Virus record (IMG/VR): IMGVR_UViG_3300010354_000157
Coordinates: 1-45,053 of that record
Strand: one strand, 5' to 3'
Length of the DNA stretch: 45,053 nt
Source: a virus
In this document: positions 1 through 8,309 of the stretch, piece after piece
How the letters are laid out: each line of letters starts with the position of its first letter
How positions within the stretch are numbered: position 1 is the stretch's first letter
Program-made: the position numbers and the translations under genes
Notes under the pieces: model-generated
Seen by the model: the letters and a program-made list of their open reading frames with translations, nothing else
What the model was told of the DNA's origin: nothing
Database searches by the model: none

Positions 1-23
1 CACAAGTTAAGAAAAGACAGGTC

Positions 24-76
24 GATTCCTGATAAGATTCTTGCGTTCAAATCTTATCACTTAGGAGTCCTATTTT
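24..76 (+). terminator. Terminator of the gene upstream of the window
   Basis: Two stacked stems are visible: outer 24-30 with 63-69 (one G-U pair) and inner 31-39 with 50-58, followed by CTATTTT. The form matches the terminators after the other small genes nearby, so it probably closes a cassette whose gene lies left of the window. A short open frame (3-32) reads into it and may be that gene's last codons. Confidence 0.55.
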
Positions 77-196
77 AGTGTCTATAATTATAAGAACTGT
101 TTTTTCGTGAATGGAATCGTGAAGGTGTAATGATACCTGCAGGAGAATAGAATTACAGATAAATGAGAAAGTATAAAGAACTCGTGTATTGTTTCG

Positions 197-223
197 TTTA
201 TACTATTATTTCAGCGCAGGGTG
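197..223 (+). repeat. 27-nt cassette element, copy 1
   Basis: Starts TTTATAC and ends GCGCAGGGTG. It is aligned without gaps to four further copies at 692, 1149, 1614 and 2429. It lies 129 nt upstream of the start codon of the first small gene. It could be a promoter or operator element, an RNA processing or antitermination site, or a recombination site; the sequence alone does not decide. Confidence 0.8.
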
Positions 224-352
224 GGTACAGTACAATTATAGCGGTTCTAGGTGGCAGTGGTTGATTTAGTGGACACTTTATCAAGTGGCACAAAGTGCTT
301 GCGTTCCGCCAGAATAGGTGCAACAATTAAAGAGTCAAGATCAGTTAATCCA
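224..352 (+). promoter_or_regulatory. Type B upstream region of cassette 1, with sigma70-like promoter
   Basis: Shares long identical blocks with 1176-1304, including CAATTATAGCGGTTCT, GGCAGTGGTTGA, TAGTGGACA and AGTGGCACAA. Three AGTGG boxes lie at 256, 268 and 284, the same 12- and 16-nt steps as in cassette 3. A promoter TTGCGT (299-304), 17-nt spacer, AACAAT (322-327) aligns with promoters of cassettes 2 and 4. The last part carries the shared leader word GTCAAGATCAG just before the ATG. Confidence 0.6.
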
Positions 353-592
353 ATGAACGCCATCCGCACTGTTTCTGGATCCAAGAATCAGTATGAGATT
401 AAGAACTTTAAGAGTCAAGATTCTCTCTATAAGTTTATGGCAACTGGTGACAATTCTCTCCGTTGGTCTACTACACAGTGGAACGTTGGTGAATTGAATC
501 TTCCGTCTGGTCACTATAAAACTCAGATTGATTCTCGCTCAATTCGTTATATCAACGTTAAGAACGATAAAGTTTATTCTTTCGCCCGTTAA
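353..592 (+). CDS. Small hypothetical protein, cassette 1
   Basis: A 79-aa soluble protein of unknown function with no membrane segment. It is rich in Ser, Asn and Lys with several aromatic residues (YEIKNF, LYKFMATGDNSLRW, INVKNDKVYSF), suggesting a small mixed alpha/beta fold. An in-frame ATG at 251 would add 34 residues, but the ATG at 353 is chosen because the bases before it (AAGAGTCAAGATCAG then TTAATCC) match the leaders just before the ATGs of the second and fourth small genes, and because the longer start would put coding sequence through the conserved non-coding region shared with cassette 3. There is no clear Shine-Dalgarno sequence. A terminator follows within 12 nt, so the gene is probably transcribed alone. 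Function not recognised. Confidence 0.75.
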   Translation: MNAIRTVSGSKNQYEIKNFKSQDSLYKFMATGDNSLRWSTTQWNVGELNLPSGHYKTQIDSRSIRYINVKNDKVYSFAR

Positions 593-603
593 TTCTTTCG
601 TGA

Positions 604-637
604 AAGGAGTTGTTTATACCAAGCAACTCCTTCTTTT
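604..637 (+). terminator. Rho-independent terminator of cassette 1
   Basis: Perfect 9-bp stem AAGGAGTTG (604-612) with CAACTCCTT (624-632), 11-nt loop, then CTTTT. It begins 12 nt after the stop codon. Confidence 0.85.
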
Positions 638-668
638 ATTCTTTACATTTAACTAAGTATAAAGAATA
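634..668 (+). repeat. Class I 3' module (35 nt), copy 1
   Basis: Identical over 35 nt to 1091-1125. It begins with the terminator T-tract, contains TTTACATTTAACTAAG and ends in TATAAAGAATA. It links the end of cassette 1 to the start of cassette 2. Confidence 0.85.
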
Positions 669-699
669 ATCGTGAAATCGTTATTTTATTCTTTATACT
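656..699 (+). repeat. 14-bp inverted repeat before cassette element 2
   Basis: AGTATAAAGAATAA (656-669) is perfectly complementary to 686-699, with a 16-nt loop. The right arm runs into the 27-nt element. Shorter versions sit before copies 1 (170-177/197-204, 8 bp) and 3 (1114-1124/1145-1155, 11 bp). It has no T-run and may be a protein-binding site or RNA hairpin. Confidence 0.75.
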
Positions 700-718
700 C
701 TTATTTCAGCGCAGGGTG
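692..718 (+). repeat. 27-nt cassette element, copy 2
   Basis: Differs from copy 1 at only one base in 27 (position 9). It ends in GCGCAGGGTG and lies 140 nt upstream of the ATG at 859. Confidence 0.8.
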
Positions 719-858
719 CCTCTAGAGGTATTCTACAGCATCCGGGTGTCCGGTCAACCGGTTTTTATACATTGACACATTAGCATTGCTGATCGTTCAA
801 CGCTTGACAGGATCCTGGATCTCCTGTATCTTAAAAGGGTCGAGATCAGGTTAATTCA
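719..858 (+). promoter_or_regulatory. Type A upstream region of cassette 2, with sigma70-like promoter
   Basis: Shares with 2456-2599 the blocks CCGGTCAACCGGTTTT and TTGACACATTAGCATTGC. Small palindromes are visible: CCTCTAGAGG, CCGG-GTGT-CCGG and CCGGTCAACCGG. A good promoter TTGACA (804-809), 17-nt spacer, TATCTT (827-832) lies just upstream of the conserved leader GGGTCGAGATCAG. Transcription from it would start about 20 nt before the ATG at 859. An additional TTGACA at 772-777 has no good -10 partner. Confidence 0.65.
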
Positions 859-1041
859 ATGCACGCCCGCACAATCGCTGACCTGCTGATGAACATTCTG
901 TCGCCCGATGATGCAACGGACTTGATTCTTTCCATGCACAATACTTCAGATGGTGCTGATGTACTTCGTCGCATTGTGCGCGATGACATTAGTGGCGCTG
1001 GTGATCTGATCGCTAACGCATTGTGGTTCCGCACTAAGTAA
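859..1041 (+). CDS. Small hypothetical protein, cassette 2
   Basis: A 60-aa acidic, probably all-helical protein (MHARTIADLLMNILSPDDA...) with no Cys and no membrane segment. The start is supported by the shared leader (GGGTCGAGATCAG) a few bases upstream and by the promoter at 804-832. Codon choice is GC-rich (CGC, CTG, GGC) compared with the structural genes to the right. A 13-bp terminator follows the stop codon within 14 nt, so the gene stands alone. Function not recognised. A longer minus-strand open frame over the same bases is judged a shadow because the promoter, leader and terminator all belong to the + strand. Confidence 0.7.
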   Translation: MHARTIADLLMNILSPDDATDLILSMHNTSDGADVLRRIVRDDISGAGDLIANALWFRTK

Positions 1042-1054
1042 CACAAACTCGTGA

Positions 1055-1096
1055 AAGGACTTCGTGAATACAAACATCACGAAGTCCTTGTTTTAT
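1055..1096 (+). terminator. Rho-independent terminator of cassette 2
   Basis: Perfect 13-bp stem (1055-1067 with 1077-1089), 9-nt loop, then G and TTTT. It is preceded by CTCGTGA, a word also found before the cassette 1 terminator in the form TTCGTGA. Confidence 0.88.
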
Positions 1097-1125
1097 TCTT
1101 TACATTTAACTAAGTATAAAGAATA
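1091..1125 (+). repeat. Class I 3' module (35 nt), copy 2
   Basis: Exact copy of 634-668, again running from the terminator T-tract to TATAAAGAATA. Its end forms an 11-bp inverted repeat with 1145-1155. Confidence 0.85.
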
Positions 1126-1148
1126 GAATAGTGATTCTTGTTTAATTC

Positions 1149-1175
1149 TTTATACCAGTATTTTCGCGCAGGGTG
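1149..1175 (+). repeat. 27-nt cassette element, copy 3
   Basis: Starts TTTATACCAG, as copies 4 and 5 do apart from the first base, and ends GCGCAGGGTG. It is 129 nt upstream of the ATG at 1305, exactly the distance seen in cassette 1. Confidence 0.8.
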
Positions 1176-1304
1176 CCTCTGGATCAATTATAGCGGTTCT
1201 GAAGGGCAGTGGTTGAAATAGTGGACAGTATGATTAGTGGCACAAGGTAACTGGAATGGGTCGGGATCTGGTGTAACTTTAAGAGGTCGAAAGGGATTCA
1301 ACCG
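1176..1304 (+). promoter_or_regulatory. Type B upstream region of cassette 3
   Basis: Same length as the cassette 1 region and the same three AGTGG boxes (1208, 1220, 1236). A possible weak promoter CTGGAA (1251-1256), 17-nt spacer, TAACTT (1274-1279) begins 75 nt after the 27-nt element, exactly as in cassette 1. A possible Shine-Dalgarno AAGGG lies shortly before the ATG. Confidence 0.55.
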
Positions 1305-1538
1305 ATGCCCACTGAATTTGCCACTCCTGAGCACTTCGCCCGTTGGGAATCTCATGCGCAAACGCTAGACTGTTACACTCTGAAATATATCATTCTAGAC
1401 TGCCAAAAGGCAGCAGAAGCGATGCGTGGGCACAATCCAATCCGTGAGGGTTACTATATTGATCAGGCATGTACTTACGGCATGGAACTGACACGTAGAA
1501 ACCGCGAATTGCCTGCTGGTTTGCGTCATCGAGTCTGA
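1305..1538 (+). CDS. Conserved small phage protein, cassette 3
   Basis: A 77-aa protein of unknown function. The middle (LKYIILDCQKAAEAMRGHNP) and the segment GYYIDQACTYGMELTRRN follow a pattern seen in small phage proteins that pair a Lys/Ala helix with a Y-x-D-x-x-x-T-Y-G-x-E-L-x-R-R motif; this recognition is from memory of family patterns. It is probably a two-helix soluble protein with two Cys (residues about 23 and 33) plus one at about 55. The ATG at 1305 has AAGGG 9-13 nt upstream and stands at the conserved distance from the 27-nt element. A terminator follows 32 nt after the stop codon. Confidence 0.75.
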   Translation: MPTEFATPEHFARWESHAQTLDCYTLKYIILDCQKAAEAMRGHNPIREGYYIDQACTYGMELTRRNRELPAGLRHRV

Positions 1539-1570
1539 CGTATTTGCCACCCAAAGTATAAAGAACTATA

Positions 1571-1604
1571 GGGTCCTTAAGTGTTACTTAGGGACCCATC
1601 TTTT
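1571..1604 (+). terminator. Rho-independent terminator of cassette 3
   Basis: 12-bp stem (1571-1582 with 1586-1597, one G-U pair) closing a 3-nt loop, followed by ATCTTTT. Its last part belongs to the 46-nt class II module. Confidence 0.85.
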
Positions 1605-1640
1605 CGTCAATTTGTTATACCAGTACTTTCGCGCAGGGTG
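1595..1640 (+). repeat. Class II 3' module plus cassette element (46 nt), copy 1
   Basis: Identical over 46 nt to 2410-2455. It runs from the end of the terminator stem (CCCATCTTTTCGTC) through the fourth 27-nt element (1614-1640). Confidence 0.9.
1614..1640 (+). repeat. 27-nt cassette element, copy 4
   Basis: Identical to copy 5 and different from copy 3 at two bases. The upstream region that follows is 161 nt, the longest of the five. Confidence 0.8.
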
Positions 1641-1801
1641 TGCTTGCTAGTAGTCTACAGCATCCGGAGATCCTGTCAAGGGTTTTTCGTGAATTGAAAC
1701 ATTTGCATCGCTTATCTGTAACATAAGTAACACTAATCAAAAAAGGGTTGACCTTTCCGTGATTCTGTGGGATCCTTAAAGGGTCGAGATCAGTCAATCC
1801 C
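1641..1801 (+). promoter_or_regulatory. Type A upstream region of cassette 4, with sigma70-like promoter
   Basis: A diverged type A region: TAGTCTACAGCATCCGG, then CCTGTCAAGG in place of CCGGTCAACCGG, then TTGAAACATTTGCATCGC in place of the TTGACACATTAGCATTGC block. A promoter TTGACC (1748-1753), 17-nt spacer, GATCCT (1771-1776) aligns with that of cassette 2. The leader GGGTCGAGATCAG precedes the ATG. Confidence 0.6.
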
Positions 1802-2122
1802 ATGCGCCAGATCGAAACCCTGATGAACGCTGCCATCCTGGGCAACGTTGACTGGAAGAAAGACAATACGGAGGTTGTGTATAACGAACACTCTGGCAAT
1901 TCTCACGTCTATCTTTATGGCGAAGAGATTGCAATTGTTGGTGAACACTTCGTCAAGATCTTCGACGGTGGGCGTAAGTCTCAAACCACAAAGAGTCGCC
2001 TGAACGCTATTCTTTCTGAGCACGGAGTTGATGGCGATTGTGTATTCCAACGCCAGGGTAAGTGGTTCCTAATTGATGACAAACAGGAGGAAGAATTCGA
2101 GAACGGTTACATCTTCGCCTGA
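1802..2122 (+). CDS. Conserved hypothetical phage protein, cassette 4
   Basis: A 106-aa soluble protein of unknown function. It begins with a helix (RQIETLMNAAILGNVDWKKDNTEV), followed by a probable beta-rich centre (SHVYLYGEEIAIVGEHFVKIFDGG), the segment TTKSRLNAILSEHG and an acidic C-terminus. Proteins with the pattern M-N-x-A-I ... NTxV ... TTKSRLNALL are familiar as uncharacterised genes of T4-like cyanophages (recognition from memory). The ATG at 1802 fits the conserved leader. No convincing terminator follows; the next gene starts 59 nt later without a cassette element, so these two are probably co-transcribed. Confidence 0.8.
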   Translation: MRQIETLMNAAILGNVDWKKDNTEVVYNEHSGNSHVYLYGEEIAIVGEHFVKIFDGGRKSQTTKSRLNAILSEHGVDGDCVFQRQGKWFLIDDKQEEEFENGYIFA

Positions 2123-2181
2123 TACATTGACCTGGGTTATGTCACTAAACTAACCTAACCAGTTCTTTATACTTTTCGACC

Positions 2182-2370
2182 ATGAATCTCTCTGGTGTTT
2201 CCTACATTCAGATCACTGGCGAACGTGTTACTTTCGACCGCACGATTGCAGGTTGGATTGCTACTGGTTGGGAAAAAGGTTTGCCTATTTGTCGCAAACC
2301 AATGACGGAGCAAGGTGTACTTAACACTCTGTTGCGTTATAAGAATCCCGATGCAATTATCATGTCCTGA
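2182..2370 (+). CDS. Small hypothetical protein, second gene of cassette 4
   Basis: A 62-aa protein (MNLSGVSYIQITGERVTFDR... ending NPDAIIMS) with one Cys and a Trp-rich centre (GWIATGWEKGLP). Function not recognised. It has no 27-nt element or type A/B region of its own. The 59 nt before it carry only TTCTTTATAC and no clear Shine-Dalgarno site. It ends in a strong terminator, so it is likely the distal gene of a two-gene unit with the 1802 gene. The start is the first ATG after an in-frame stop. Confidence 0.65.
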   Translation: MNLSGVSYIQITGERVTFDRTIAGWIATGWEKGLPICRKPMTEQGVLNTLLRYKNPDAIIMS

Positions 2371-2386
2371 GTAACACAAACCGTAA

Positions 2387-2419
2387 GGCACCTGAGTTAT
2401 ACTTAGGTGCCCATCTTTT
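2387..2419 (+). terminator. Rho-independent terminator after the 2182 gene
   Basis: 11-bp stem GGCACCTGAGT (2387-2397) with 2401-2411, one G-T mismatch pairable in RNA, 3-nt loop TAT, then CATCTTTT. It is preceded by GTAACACAAACCGTAAGG, resembling the segment before the cassette 2 terminator. Confidence 0.87.
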
Positions 2420-2455
2420 CGTCAATTTGTTATACCAGTACTTTCGCGCAGGGTG
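2410..2455 (+). repeat. Class II 3' module plus cassette element (46 nt), copy 2
   Basis: Exact copy of 1595-1640, including the fifth 27-nt element (2429-2455). Confidence 0.9.
2429..2455 (+). repeat. 27-nt cassette element, copy 5
   Basis: Identical to copy 4. It lies 144 nt upstream of the ATG at 2600. Confidence 0.8.
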
Positions 2456-2599
2456 CCCCTACGGGTAGTCTACACGATCCGGGTACCCGGTCAACCGGTT
2501 TTAACACATTGACACATTAGCATTGCTGATCGGTCGAATCCGTAGAATCCGCCGAATCGGGTGTAGGATGGCGGAGCAATCCGCACCAAGGGCGAAGCA
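2456..2599 (+). promoter_or_regulatory. Type A upstream region of cassette 5
   Basis: Carries CTACGGGTAG, the palindrome CCGGGTACCCGG, then CCGGTCAACCGGTTTT and TTGACACATTAGCATTGC (TTGACA at 2509-2514), as in cassette 2. The distal part departs from the other cassettes: short GAATCC repeats (2535-2560) and no GTCGAGATCAG leader. No -10 at a standard distance from the TTGACA is visible. A Shine-Dalgarno candidate AAGGGCG lies 7 nt before the ATG. Confidence 0.5.
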
Positions 2600-3349
2600 A
2601 TGTCTACTCTCACCGCCGCCGATTCTGCCCGTATTGATGCACTTCTCGATCGCGTGATCGGTGATCTGAGCGCGATCAATCCTCAGGCAGGTGCAAACCT
2701 TGAGTACGATCTTGCGCAGTCCGATGATCGTATTGTGCAGACCTTTAGTGTTAGCACCCGCCGCGACGGTTTGATCACCTTTCAGTCTGATTTGACTGAC
2801 GCTGAGGTTCTTCAATCCCTGCGTGGTTCGCGTTCACAATTCGCCCAAGATTTGGCGCGTAAGTTCCACAAATTGTCTGCGTCACAGTATGCTTGGGCGC
2901 ACAAGATCGCCGTTGATTCTATCAAGCAACAGCAGAATGTTGCCGTGGTTGATGACACTCAGACCAGTCAATTCGAGGCACTGTTTAATGCTTTCGAGGC
3001 AGCAAAGGCGAAAGGTGCTAAGCGTCTGACCCTGCGATTCGACGGTGTTAATGTGAAACCAAACCGTGATCTTACCGCTCTGTGGGTTACATCACAGACT
3101 GAGACTGAGATGGGTCAGTATGGTCAACAGGCAAAGTATCTGGGTAAGGTTACACGTATCGGGATGGATTCGCGTCTGTCCGATGATGTTAAAGAGGTGA
3201 TTCTGCAGGCGTCCAATGATCCTCTGACCGCTGCAATCCGCTACGGTAAGGTATCGGGTGAGTGTTCATGTTGCGGTCGTGAATTGACTGATCCTCAGTC
3301 GATTGAGCGTGGAATCGGTCCTATCTGCGCCACTAAGTTCGGGTGGTGA
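2600..3349 (+). CDS. DUF6011-like zinc-motif protein, cassette 5
   Basis: A 249-aa protein. Residues 1-60 are acidic and helical. A central segment (about 80-120: FAQDLARKFHKLSASQYAWAHKIA) resembles the small domain that accompanies such proteins in phages. The C-terminus (220-249) carries C222, C224, C225 in a C-x-C-C-G-R-E-L-T-D pattern and C243 in GIGPIC, the arrangement of DUF6011-type zinc-binding tails. The family is uncharacterised; a nucleic-acid role is only an inference. This is the largest and most GC-rich gene of the array, using CGC, CTG and GTC codons freely. The ATG at 2600 has AAGGGCG upstream. A long terminator follows directly. Confidence 0.8.
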   Translation: MSTLTAADSARIDALLDRVIGDLSAINPQAGANLEYDLAQSDDRIVQTFSVSTRRDGLITFQSDLTDAEVLQSLRGSRSQFAQDLARKFHKLSASQYAWAHKIAVDSIKQQQNVAVVDDTQTSQFEALFNAFEAAKAKGAKRLTLRFDGVNVKPNRDLTALWVTSQTETEMGQYGQQAKYLGKVTRIGMDSRLSDDVKEVILQASNDPLTAAIRYGKVSGECSCCGRELTDPQSIERGIGPICATKFGW

Positions 3350-3358
3350 TGTAACCTA

Positions 3359-3399
3359 CCGTGAGGGCACTGTTTTATATCAGTGCCTTTCACGGTTTG
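3359..3399 (+). terminator. Rho-independent terminator of cassette 5
   Basis: Inner stem GGCACTG with CAGTGCC (8-nt loop) extended by outer CCGTGA (3359-3364) with TCACGG (3390-3395), followed by TTTG. It closes the cassette array. Confidence 0.8.
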
Positions 3400-3698
3400 T
3401 ATTAGTATAGTGAATTACTTATGATTGATTCGTGATTGTTTATACGTGTATTCGTGATTCGTGAATGTCGTGAATAGGCAGTTATTTTATGTTGTTTGTT
3501 ATTGTTTATATTTTGCGTTGCGTATATAAAAATCAATAAGTCCCTAACCTACAGAGGTGACAAATCGACCTTTAAATATCACTCTCAAAAAATTTTTCCG
3601 GAAGTAAAAAACCAGTTCTCAAGGTGGCACATAAGTACGCCCACCCTTTAAATAAAGAAATATAATAAGATCATACAAAAAAATTTCGAGGCAAAAAA
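3400..3698 (+). other. Non-coding boundary between cassette array and phage late region
   Basis: No gene is supported. The left part has four CGTGA words (3430-3475) and TTTATAC; composition then drops to AT-rich. Two TTTAAATA words (3571-3578 and 3647-3654) resemble the phage late promoter. TTCTCAAGGTGGCAC (3616-3630) is nearly repeated at 4123-4138. TATAAT at 3661-3666 has no matching -35. The stretch AATTTTTCCGGAAG is a weak palindrome. Confidence 0.5.
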
Positions 3699-3779
3699 AT
3701 GTGCGTCAAATGGATTCATAAGGGTGGATATTCACGACCTGACAAGAGAACTTTGAAGAAGGGTGGAAAGAAAAAGTGA
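3699..3779 (+). CDS. Tiny Lys-rich protein (26 aa)
   Basis: A 26-residue, strongly basic peptide beginning MCVKWIHKGGYSRPDKR and ending in Lys-rich GGKKK. The support is positional: GAGG at 3688-3691 sits 7 nt before the ATG, and its TGA overlaps the GTG start of the next gene (GTGA), a typical translational-coupling junction. Function unknown; a nucleic-acid-binding role would be only an inference from charge. At this length coding potential cannot be proved from one sequence. Confidence 0.5.
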   Translation: MCVKWIHKGGYSRPDKRTLKKGGKKK

Positions 3780-3916
3780 GGAAGCGTCCGTATTGGAATT
3801 TTTGGAAAGTTATCTTTGCTGGGTGGTTAATACGTTATCCGGGAAAGATGATGAGAATTTTTGGAGTGTCAATTGGATTTCTAGTTATAATAATATATAA
3901 TGCAATTACAAAATAA
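3776..3916 (+). CDS. Small membrane protein (46 aa, GTG start)
   Basis: The product begins MRKRPYWNFWKVIFAGWLIR and continues to a hydrophobic stretch (about residues 28-43, IFGVSIGFLVIIIYNA), giving a probable single membrane segment with a basic, Trp-rich N-terminus on the cytoplasmic side. The GTG start overlaps the stop codon of the preceding tiny gene. The N-terminal R-P-Y-W-N-F pattern followed by AGWxIRxP is one I recall from uncharacterised cyanophage membrane peptides. Function unknown. Confidence 0.65.
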   Translation: MRKRPYWNFWKVIFAGWLIRYPGKMMRIFGVSIGFLVIIIYNAITK

Positions 3917-3921
3917 AATTT

Positions 3922-4122
3922 ATGAAAGAACAAGAAAAAATATATCACATATACGCAAAAGGTGAGTGCATTTATCACAATTTATCAGAAGAAAAATTTT
4001 CTGAAACTTGGGAGATGTTGCACAGAATGGTTGATCTATTGGGTGGTAATATTTCAAGAGAAGATTTGGAATACGAAGAAGTTTTTGCAAATAAACTTAT
4101 ACCACTAAATTCTTCATATTAA
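3922..4122 (+). CDS. Small conserved phage protein (66 aa), related to the 4969 gene
   Basis: A 66-aa acidic protein. The layout is a short beta segment (IYHIYAKGECIYHNLSEEKF), a helix (SETWEMLHRMVDLL) and an acidic end (ISREDLEYEEVF). The same layout recurs in the 4969 gene of this window: a Tyr-rich strand, K-G-x-x-I-Y-x-x-L-S-x-E-x, a helix, then I-x-x-x-x-L-x-x-E-E. The two are probably paralogues. It starts 5 nt after the membrane peptide with no clear Shine-Dalgarno site. Function unknown. Confidence 0.75.
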   Translation: MKEQEKIYHIYAKGECIYHNLSEEKFSETWEMLHRMVDLLGGNISREDLEYEEVFANKLIPLNSSY

Positions 4123-6396: not shown

Positions 6397-8309
6397 TGCC
6401 ATTAGTTAATTTTACAAATTTAGACTTCGATCAAATAAAAACTTCGATTAAAGATTATCTTAGATCGAATTCAAATTTTACAGACTACGATTTTGAGGGA
6501 TCTAATCTCTCAGTATTGATCGATTCTTTAGCATATAATACATACATTTCCTCGTATAATGCTAATATGATTAGCAATGAGGTTTTTATTGATAGTGCTA
6601 CACTTAGAGAAAATGTTGTTTCTCTCGCAAGAAACATTGGATATGTTCCAAAATCTAGGACTGCGGCGAGAGCAAATATATCATTTTTTGTAGATACTAC
6701 GAGATTTCAAATAAATCCATTAACTTTAACGTTAAAGCAAGGAACAGTTTGTTCAACTGAATCATTTGGTGGGTCAAGTTATACTTTTATTGTTCCTGCA
6801 GATATCACTACTCATGTAGTCAATGGAATTGCTTTTTTTGAGAATATTGATGTATATGAAGGAACATACCTTGTAGATAATTTTACAGTAGGATCTAATA
6901 ACTCAACTCCATCACAACGTTATATTTTATCTAATCCAAATATCGATACTTCATTACTTAGAGTTGTTGTTAGAGACACACAATCTAGCACCAATTCTAG
7001 AAAATTTACACTATCTAATAATCTTTTTTCTATAAATTCATCTTCAAGAGTTTTCTTTATTCAAGAGATAGAAGACCAAAGATATGAATTAATATTTGGA
7101 GATGGTGTCTTTGGAGAAAACCTTGAACCATTAAATTATATTGAAGTTTCATATGCAGTTACTAATGGCGCTGTTGCAAATGGATTATCATCATTCAGTT
7201 TTAATGGAAGAATATTAGACAATAATGGAAACTCCATCACTACAGGAATCTCTTTAATTACTACAAATATTGCATCTGAAGGGGGAAAAGAAATTGAATC
7301 TATAGATTCAATTAAAAATTATGCCCCCAGGATTTATGCATCTCAAAACAGAGCAGTAACGGCATCTGATTATGAGGCACTGATTCCGACTATTTACCCA
7401 GAAACTCAATCGGTTTCTGTATTTGGTGGTGAAGATTTAACCCCTCCACAATACGGAAAAGTTTTTATTACTATTAAACCTTTTAATAGTCAGTTTATTC
7501 CCAACTCCATAAAAGATAATTTAAAAAATAAACTTAGAAAATATTCTGTTGCAGGTATTGTACCAGAAATTTTGGATCTAAAATACATATTTGTGGAAAC
7601 AAATACTACAGCATATTATAATAGCAATCTTGCCCCAACTCCCGATCATGTTAAAAGTATTATTTCAAATAATATTAACACTTATGCAAACTCAATAGAA
7701 TTAAACAAATATGGAGCAAGATTTAAATATAGTAAGTACCAAAAAGTAATTGATGATAGTCATGAATCAGTAACTTCAAATATAACTAAAATTCAAATGA
7801 GAAGAGACCTTCGTGCATCAATAAATGAATTGGCAGAATATGAAATTTGTTATGGTAATCAATTTCATATTGAAAAAATGGATGGATATAATATAAAATC
7901 ATCTGGATTTACTGTTAATGGTATAAGTGAAACTGTTTATTTTGGAGATTTTCCCAATTCAGATGGAAAAAATGGAACGATATTCCTATTTTCAATTACT
8001 TCACCAACTCAACCAGTTATTAAAAGAAATAATGTTGGAAAAATAGATTATATTAAAGGAGAAATTATTTTAAATCCTATCAATATTCTTTCAGCAGTAA
8101 AAAATACTGGAGGTCAACCAATTATTGAAATTTCTGCTATTCCAAAATCAAATGATGTGATTGGATTGCAAGATTTGTATTTACAACTAGATACTAGCAA
8201 AAGTATCTTAAATATGATATCTGATGAAATTTCTTCTGGTTCAGATATATCTGGATCAACATATACTGTTACATCAAGTTACACTAACGGAGATCTTGTA
8301 AGATTGTAA
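6396..8309 (+). CDS. 6: Baseplate wedge subunit gp6
   Basis: A 637-aa protein, close to T4 gp6 (660 aa). The N-terminal part is diagnostic: NFTNLDFDQIKTSIKDYLRS, then DSLAYNTYISSYNANMISNEVFIDSATLRENVVSLARNIGY (about 45-87), the baseplate-J/gp6 helical region. A second marker is ASQNRAVTASDYEALIPTIYP (about 313-333). gp6 dimers form the iris-like inner ring of the baseplate wedge with gp25 and gp53. The gene shares a base with gp25 and is followed 4 nt later by the giant tail gene, so it is part of one late transcription unit. The C-terminal third is Ser/Thr-rich and less conserved. Confidence 0.93.
   Translation: MPLVNFTNLDFDQIKTSIKDYLRSNSNFTDYDFEGSNLSVLIDSLAYNTYISSYNANMISNEVFIDSATLRENVVSLARNIGYVPKSRTAARANISFFVDTTRFQINPLTLTLKQGTVCSTESFGGSSYTFIVPADITTHVVNGIAFFENIDVYEGTYLVDNFTVGSNNSTPSQRYILSNPNIDTSLLRVVVRDTQSSTNSRKFTLSNNLFSINSSSRVFFIQEIEDQRYELIFGDGVFGENLEPLNYIEVSYAVTNGAVANGLSSFSFNGRILDNNGNSITTGISLITTNIASEGGKEIESIDSIKNYAPRIYASQNRAVTASDYEALIPTIYPETQSVSVFGGEDLTPPQYGKVFITIKPFNSQFIPNSIKDNLKNKLRKYSVAGIVPEILDLKYIFVETNTTAYYNSNLAPTPDHVKSIISNNINTYANSIELNKYGARFKYSKYQKVIDDSHESVTSNITKIQMRRDLRASINELAEYEICYGNQFHIEKMDGYNIKSSGFTVNGISETVYFGDFPNSDGKNGTIFLFSITSPTQPVIKRNNVGKIDYIKGEIILNPINILSAVKNTGGQPIIEISAIPKSNDVIGLQDLYLQLDTSKSILNMISDEISSGSDISGSTYTVTSSYTNGDLVRL

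Follow-up and report, generated by a model that had tools for sequence, protein, structure and literature searches.

The first few kilobases of a T4-like cyanophage fragment (Kyanoviridae) carry an array of small genes in which five near-identical 27-nt elements precede five of the six genes. The fragment, positions 1 to 45,053 of IMG/VR virus record IMGVR_UViG_3300010354_000157, is referred to here as the window, i.e., the whole 45-kb stretch of DNA that was analysed, and proteins of the baseplate, portal, terminase, tail tube and sheath stabilizer were matched in it. We read the array, with a probability of roughly 0.7, as a gene-exchange region in which the small genes are swappable cassettes and the DNA between them forms modules with divergent promoters and a short leftward RNA. 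From left to right, an intergenic region would comprise the terminator of the left-hand gene, the element, a leftward sigma70-type promoter, a control region, a rightward sigma70-type promoter and a leader of about 19 nt. We propose that the leftward promoter drives transcription of a short RNA, away from the gene, and that the element (ACCCTGC..RAAATA when read on the leftward strand) supplies the conserved front part of this RNA. The RNA would reach as far as the terminator region of the left-hand gene and, in the long class described below, would also carry a 4-bp hairpin. Homologous recombination inside the shared non-coding blocks could then add, remove or swap genes while their expression signals are kept.

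Five exact copies of GCGCAGGGTG are present in the window and six matches are obtained when one mismatch is allowed, against 0.18 expected, while the full 27-mer gives five matches and none in 100 shuffles. The elements, E1 to E5, stand 130, 141, 130, 162 and 145 nt before the ATG of the following gene. Among 100 elements, those of relatives included, 56 have a terminator-like hairpin at most 90 nt upstream, compared with 8.5 after shuffling. An earlier note on this DNA had listed these elements together with the hairpins and the element-to-gene distances, all of which were recovered where it had placed them and far above chance. Terminators were likewise confirmed after five of the six genes, gene 4 running on into gene 5 without one. 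To its description of five elements introducing six small genes it may be added that gene 5 lacks an element of its own and that gene 6, at 249 aa, is not very small.

The conserved core of the element is TATTTYATGGCAGGGT, the TTTATAC part being less constant, and the leader after it is of one of three types: class A, which is long and has a hairpin, and classes B and C, which are both short. The window copies belong to classes B and C only, the long hairpin being a property of class A. No match above the gathering score was obtained with Rfam 15 in window positions 1-4000, in six array loci or in the array of contig L097. A leader peptide beginning ATGGCAGGG was ruled out, as stops (GGGTAA, GGGTGA) and a 1-nt deletion disrupt its frame; a leftward small peptide starting ATGACG was ruled out because its start codon is not conserved, and the inner palindrome GTTAGCGTGGCTTAC was rejected as a hairpin because substitutions disrupt the pairing.

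Exchange of the genes at these modules can be seen by comparing relatives. L009, a close relative obtained from a Gp96 search, is 97% identical to the window in its 3' part and lacks window gene 1: the element and leader run directly into gene 2, with the junction just before the start codon. The array of L009 has two extra cassettes further left and extends past the start of the window. Contigs L074 and L093 share 718 bp at 99% identity, after which their unrelated genes diverge from the ATG onward, and a module also stands at a gene-swap junction in L098 and L109. Upstream DNA is at least 80% identical in 34 pairs of units, and about half of these pairs encode unrelated proteins. L067 and L097 share blocks of 80-150 bp, mostly centred on the element, next to unrelated neighbour genes. 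When open reading frames of the array contigs were ordered by family, a constant right border emerged, consisting of the DUF6011 gene, a small gene, the glycosyltransferase gene and then baseplate genes, left of which the cassettes are shuffled. Since the blocks are alike between cassettes and phages, homologous recombination could swap genes with their signals retained, and by analogy with the promoter-early stem-loops (PeSLs) of T4-type phages we infer that this is how the genes are exchanged, no dedicated recombinase being needed. The view taken in the earlier note, that these are independently regulated, exchangeable modules, is well supported by the promoters of their own, the terminators beside most elements and the swaps at the regulatory region or start codon.

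The case for a leftward RNA combines predicted promoters with RNA structure. After the element a box recurs (AGTCTA or ATTATA) that reads as a -10 box on the opposite strand; in class B this strand also has TTGACA-like boxes, 16-17 nt away. Minus-strand promoter scores of at least 8 out of 12 are reached by all class B (20/20) and class C (13/13) copies, the shuffled means being 2.8 and 2.6, while plus-strand promoter scores of the adjoining leader are low (4/20, 3/13 and 2/43). In class A/A2 a leftward -10 box occurs in 48 of 54 sequences (8.7 when shuffled) and an extended TGN -10 in 35 of 54 (0.7 when shuffled). Furthermore, the class A hairpin fits the minus strand, on which 91.9% of cells pair compared with 68.2% in shuffles (0/500 as high), all four pairs show changes on both sides and the closing pair is a U-G wobble in 10 sequences; on the plus strand the pairing is poorer and 15 of 34 sequences have a broken closing pair. 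A covariance model, for which 31 sequences were used, gave 114 matches in array contigs and, in 507 kb of the window, relatives and isolates, one weak place only (E 0.05, in phage S-SRM01); the window has no match because its copies are of classes B and C. It is the predicted promoter and the RNA-structure evidence on the same minus strand that led us to propose a short leftward RNA for each intergenic region. One RNA copy is inverted, at L110:9201-9412 (oriented) and at the same place in L076, L091, L072, L088, L094 and L105, where it reads toward the DUF6011 gene and could be part of its 5' region.

On the gene side of the module, most units have a sigma70-like -10 box ending 24-26 nt before the ATG, and 12 of 66 gene promoters score at least 9 out of 12, against 1.3 in shuffles. 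The gene leader is GTCGAAAGGGATTCAACCC-like and GTC[GA] is found 18-20 nt before the ATG in 43 of 82 units; taken with the position of the -10 box, this places the predicted transcript start some 17-20 nt ahead of the gene. In the window, structural genes carry ATAAATA-like late signals, unlike the cassette genes, which are probably expressed early. Boxes AGTGGACA and (A/C)TGGCACAAG are repeated just before the gene -35 in class A and C control regions (e.g., window 256-292), and class A and B control regions have paired TAACA/TTACA boxes with a 10-nt period, an arrangement that we take to be reminiscent of cyanobacterial response-regulator sites.

Among the alternatives, the one that fares best accepts the cassettes as PeSL-type units and the firing of the leftward promoter, and holds that the resulting RNA is functionless, i.e., antisense noise or interference with the 3' end of the upstream gene. 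Swapping and a promoter-terminator make-up do suffice to explain an array of this kind. However, noise would not conserve ACCCTGC and the AAATA past the start, nor pairing through compensatory changes, and the block stays similar between the unrelated flanking genes of L067 and L097, so we consider this reading unlikely.

Slightly less probable again is that the element is a rightward control site. It would then be either an additional promoter or the place where one phage regulator binds to switch all the cassette genes together; genes under a common regulator were one suggestion of the earlier note. An element upstream of every cassette would suit this, as would the strong conservation of TATTTY and GCAGGGT and the similarity of TATAC and TATTT to -10 boxes. 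However, the gene promoter lies about 100 nt nearer the ATG, at a variable distance from the element, and a rightward promoter at TATAC or TATTTY was rejected on account of the missing conserved -35 and the low plus-strand scores of the adjoining leader. Promoter and RNA structure both place the element on the leftward strand, the hairpin pairing better there, and in several relatives the inverted copy is turned relative to the next gene. The earlier note, right about exchangeable units, thus erred as to the strand and the probable nature of the element. Nor is the element the phage late promoter, as it is without the TATAAATA -10 element of T4 late promoters and the structural genes of the window carry the ATAAATA-like motif instead. 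The earlier note had also considered a recombination platform for accessory genes, and a site-specific form of it (integron-like or recombinase-driven, with the element as attachment site) is very improbable: a repeated site between exchangeable genes and an inverted copy would fit, but the observed junctions are at the start codon or gene leader, not the element, no integrase was found among array genes or scanned window proteins (whole genomes being incomplete and attC not modelled), no dedicated recombinase came to light, and homologous recombination in shared regulatory DNA is enough.

Several points weigh against divergent modules with a leftward RNA, the reading that we prefer. The class A leftward promoter is often without a good -35, most rightward promoters score modestly (below 9 out of 12), and the A-rich left side that would be apt to stop leftward transcription well is present in only 31 of 90 terminators. 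The RNAs of the window would be minimal, its copies being of classes B and C without the long hairpin. The RNA core would pair with the conserved 5' gene leaders barely better than shuffled sequence does (-9.9 against -8.7 kcal/mol), and the gene leader was set aside as a target. As to what the RNA might do, we can offer only the tentative idea, to which we give somewhat less than even odds, of an RNA family with a shared target, in the host or the phage, on which its members would act in trans. Each cassette would have one small RNA gene, oriented away from its protein gene, with up to 12 in an array; these genes would be conserved among unrelated cassettes and would serve at the same time as a homology block for exchange.

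The element is not peculiar to the window. The earlier note would have been undermined by its absence from all relatives, among which it proved to be widespread. A pattern scan of viral contigs returned 50 stretches, about 20 of which were chance matches, dropped by eye for a missing flanking motif; about 30 genuine contigs of uncultured T4-like cyanophages remain, with up to 12 copies each, and a scan with the class A core gained a few more contigs. The copies form one cluster per contig, beside baseplate genes: one 24-kb contig has 12 within about 9 kb, and a 132.8-kb contig has six, all in its first 4.5 kb and none in the remainder. Among 84,980 genomes of bacteria and archaea, the class A core gave nothing credible, a single Streptomyces match being taken as chance, and the element was not found in a DNA-level search of 50,697 isolate phages. 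The isolate S-SRM01 (freshwater, Singapore) does have two recognisable diverged units, at L120:8600-8800 and 7040-7200, with TGGCACAAG control boxes. These are weak matches by the covariance model (E 0.05 and 0.02) and were accepted on inspection by eye, as all of the parts correspond (terminator, element, hairpin, control box, promoter); promoters and terminators go unmentioned in the S-SRM01 publication. On a glycosyltransferase tree the array carriers are scattered, with at least five changes forced by well-supported branches, and the array has therefore been gained, lost or transferred, although the glycosyltransferase anchor gene may itself have been exchanged and divergent copies may have been overlooked in the contigs scored as having none.

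Table 1. Elements, genes and predicted signals of the array (window coordinates)
Feature	Position	Strand	Remarks
Element E1	197..223	+	Class C leader after it
Element E2	692..718	+	Class B
Element E3	1149..1175	+	Class C
Element E4	1614..1640	+	Class B
Element E5	2429..2455	+	Class B
Predicted leftward promoter of E1	235..264	-	TCAACC-18-TATAAT
Predicted leftward promoter of E2	730..757	-	TTGACC-16-TAGAAT
Predicted leftward promoter of E3	1187..1216	-	TCAACC-18-TATAAT
Predicted leftward promoter of E4	1652..1679	-	TTGACA-16-TAGACT
Predicted leftward promoter of E5	2467..2494	-	TTGACC-16-TAGACT
Predicted short leftward RNA of E4	1560..1645	-	Putative; starts ~7 nt past the -10 box and reaches the gene 3 terminator; approximate ends
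Predicted short leftward RNA of E5	2380..2460	-	Putative; reaches the gene 5 terminator; approximate ends
Predicted promoter of gene 1	299..327	+	TTGCGT-17-AACAAT; weak -35; from sequence
Predicted promoter of gene 2	804..832	+	TTGACA-17-TATCTT; 26 nt between -10 and ATG
Predicted promoter of gene 3	1251..1279	+	CTGGAA-17-TAACTT; weak -35; L009 sequence identical
Predicted promoter of gene 4	1748..1776	+	TTGACC-17-GATCCT; 25 nt between -10 and ATG
Predicted promoter of gene 6	2541..2569	+	CGTAGA-17-TAGGAT; weak; L009 sequence identical
Gene 1	353..592	+	79 aa; no family found; cassette missing from L009
Gene 2	859..1041	+	60 aa; no family found
Gene 3	1305..1538	+	77 aa; no confident family
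Gene 4	1802..2122	+	106 aa; Kyanoviridae Gp96 protein (PF23790)
Gene 5	2182..2370	+	62 aa; in the unit of gene 4; no own element, no terminator between genes 4 and 5
Gene 6	2600..3349	+	249 aa; C-terminal DUF6011; last gene of most arrays
Terminator-like hairpin 3' of gene 1	604..632	+	Hairpin scan
Terminator-like hairpin 3' of gene 2	1055..1089	+	13-bp stem, 9-nt loop; loop exceeded the limit of the first scan
Terminator-like hairpin 3' of gene 3	1571..1597	either	Left side A-rich; may act bidirectionally
Terminator-like hairpin 3' of gene 5	2387..2411	either	May act bidirectionally
Weaker hairpin 3' of gene 6	3366..3387	+	Poor U tract; from sequence by eye

The array (Table 1) lies directly upstream of the glycosyltransferase and baseplate genes, the glycosyltransferase 3' of it being up to 89% identical to those of Synechococcus phages such as Bellamy and S-SM2. 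The array region (window 1-4000) has a GC content of 39-49%, compared with about 30% across most of the window and its structural region, which suggests a different origin or a different codon use for early genes. Repeats of GTATAAAGAA/TTCTTTATAC were noted at window 656-699, 1113-1155 and 2163-2175, beside terminators and before gene 5, and to the left of the L009 array is a possible homing endonuclease gene (893-1700, minus strand), judged so by inspection of the sequence.

Most cassette gene products are without a known family. One family is GP88, and another, F30, found in five contigs (e.g., L105:7496-7981, oriented), is ArdA-like (PHROG 36653, E 1.5e-8; Pfam below cut-off). With a family that resembles anti-restriction proteins among those swapped, the region may serve for the exchange of counter-defence genes. 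The array bears on how lytic phages swap small host-takeover genes without losing their expression, and here the swap unit is directly visible, a non-coding module that stays constant while the gene changes at its start codon. The predicted leftward RNA is open to testing, since S-SRM01, which has related units, is in culture with its host Synechococcus sp. KCZYC6.

Repeated intergenic signals have been described in other viruses. In halovirus HF2 promoters are carried by intergenic repeats and were reporter-tested; however, these are archaeal promoters, their positions are conserved among relatives rather than shuffled, and the abstract of that account mentions no structured RNA (PMC8707807). 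The SAS of Cluster K mycobacteriophages is a 13-bp sequence, GGGATAGGAGCCC, immediately before the start codon (PMC3203893). Like the present leader, it is a short conserved sequence in front of unrelated small genes, and half of the copies have an extended upstream inverted repeat (ESAS). However, sequence and host differ, GGGATAGGAGCCC being absent here in favour of the GTCGAAAGGGATTCAACCC-like leader, its authors saw little hairpin support, and terminators and divergent promoters are not described in the passages considered (PMC3203893). Closer at hand, other Kyanoviridae (e.g., L047, L038, S-SM2 and S-CRM01) have a repeated promoter-like element before many small genes in the same baseplate region. 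Most other contigs of the family carry repeated intergenic elements of their own (L047, L044, L021, L038, L041, L057, L119, which is S-SM2, and L122, which is S-CRM01), for example AAAGTTACTCACCTCCAAAGTGTCCTAGTAGTATGA in 9-12 copies and, in S-CRM01, GGTCCTCTTATGG in seven. These have other sequences with no match to the present element, are mostly 40-100 nt long and often leave no space for a terminator. Control elements repeated gene by gene are therefore widespread in the family; the one described here is larger and distinct in form.

The closest known counterparts are the PeSLs, the "mobile regulatory cassettes" of T4-type phages (Arbiol 2010 and Comeau 2014, as cited in PMC4503421). As outlined there, PeSLs are composite promoter-terminator modules among small variable genes and mark gene-shuffling junctions; cyanophage S-PM2 has PeSL-like signals at low density only (PMC4503421). 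The present array shares the T4-type setting, a sigma70-like promoter, a stem-loop terminator within the module and a module at swap junctions, and thus the suggestion of an undescribed system holds only in part, as the array works like PeSL cassettes. The module here differs from PeSLs, as far as that citing article outlines them, in being 150-250 nt long and in having divergent promoters, a conserved predicted leftward RNA and, in the long class, a covarying hairpin. The array is a PeSL-like system, and what is new in it is the embedded RNA candidate.

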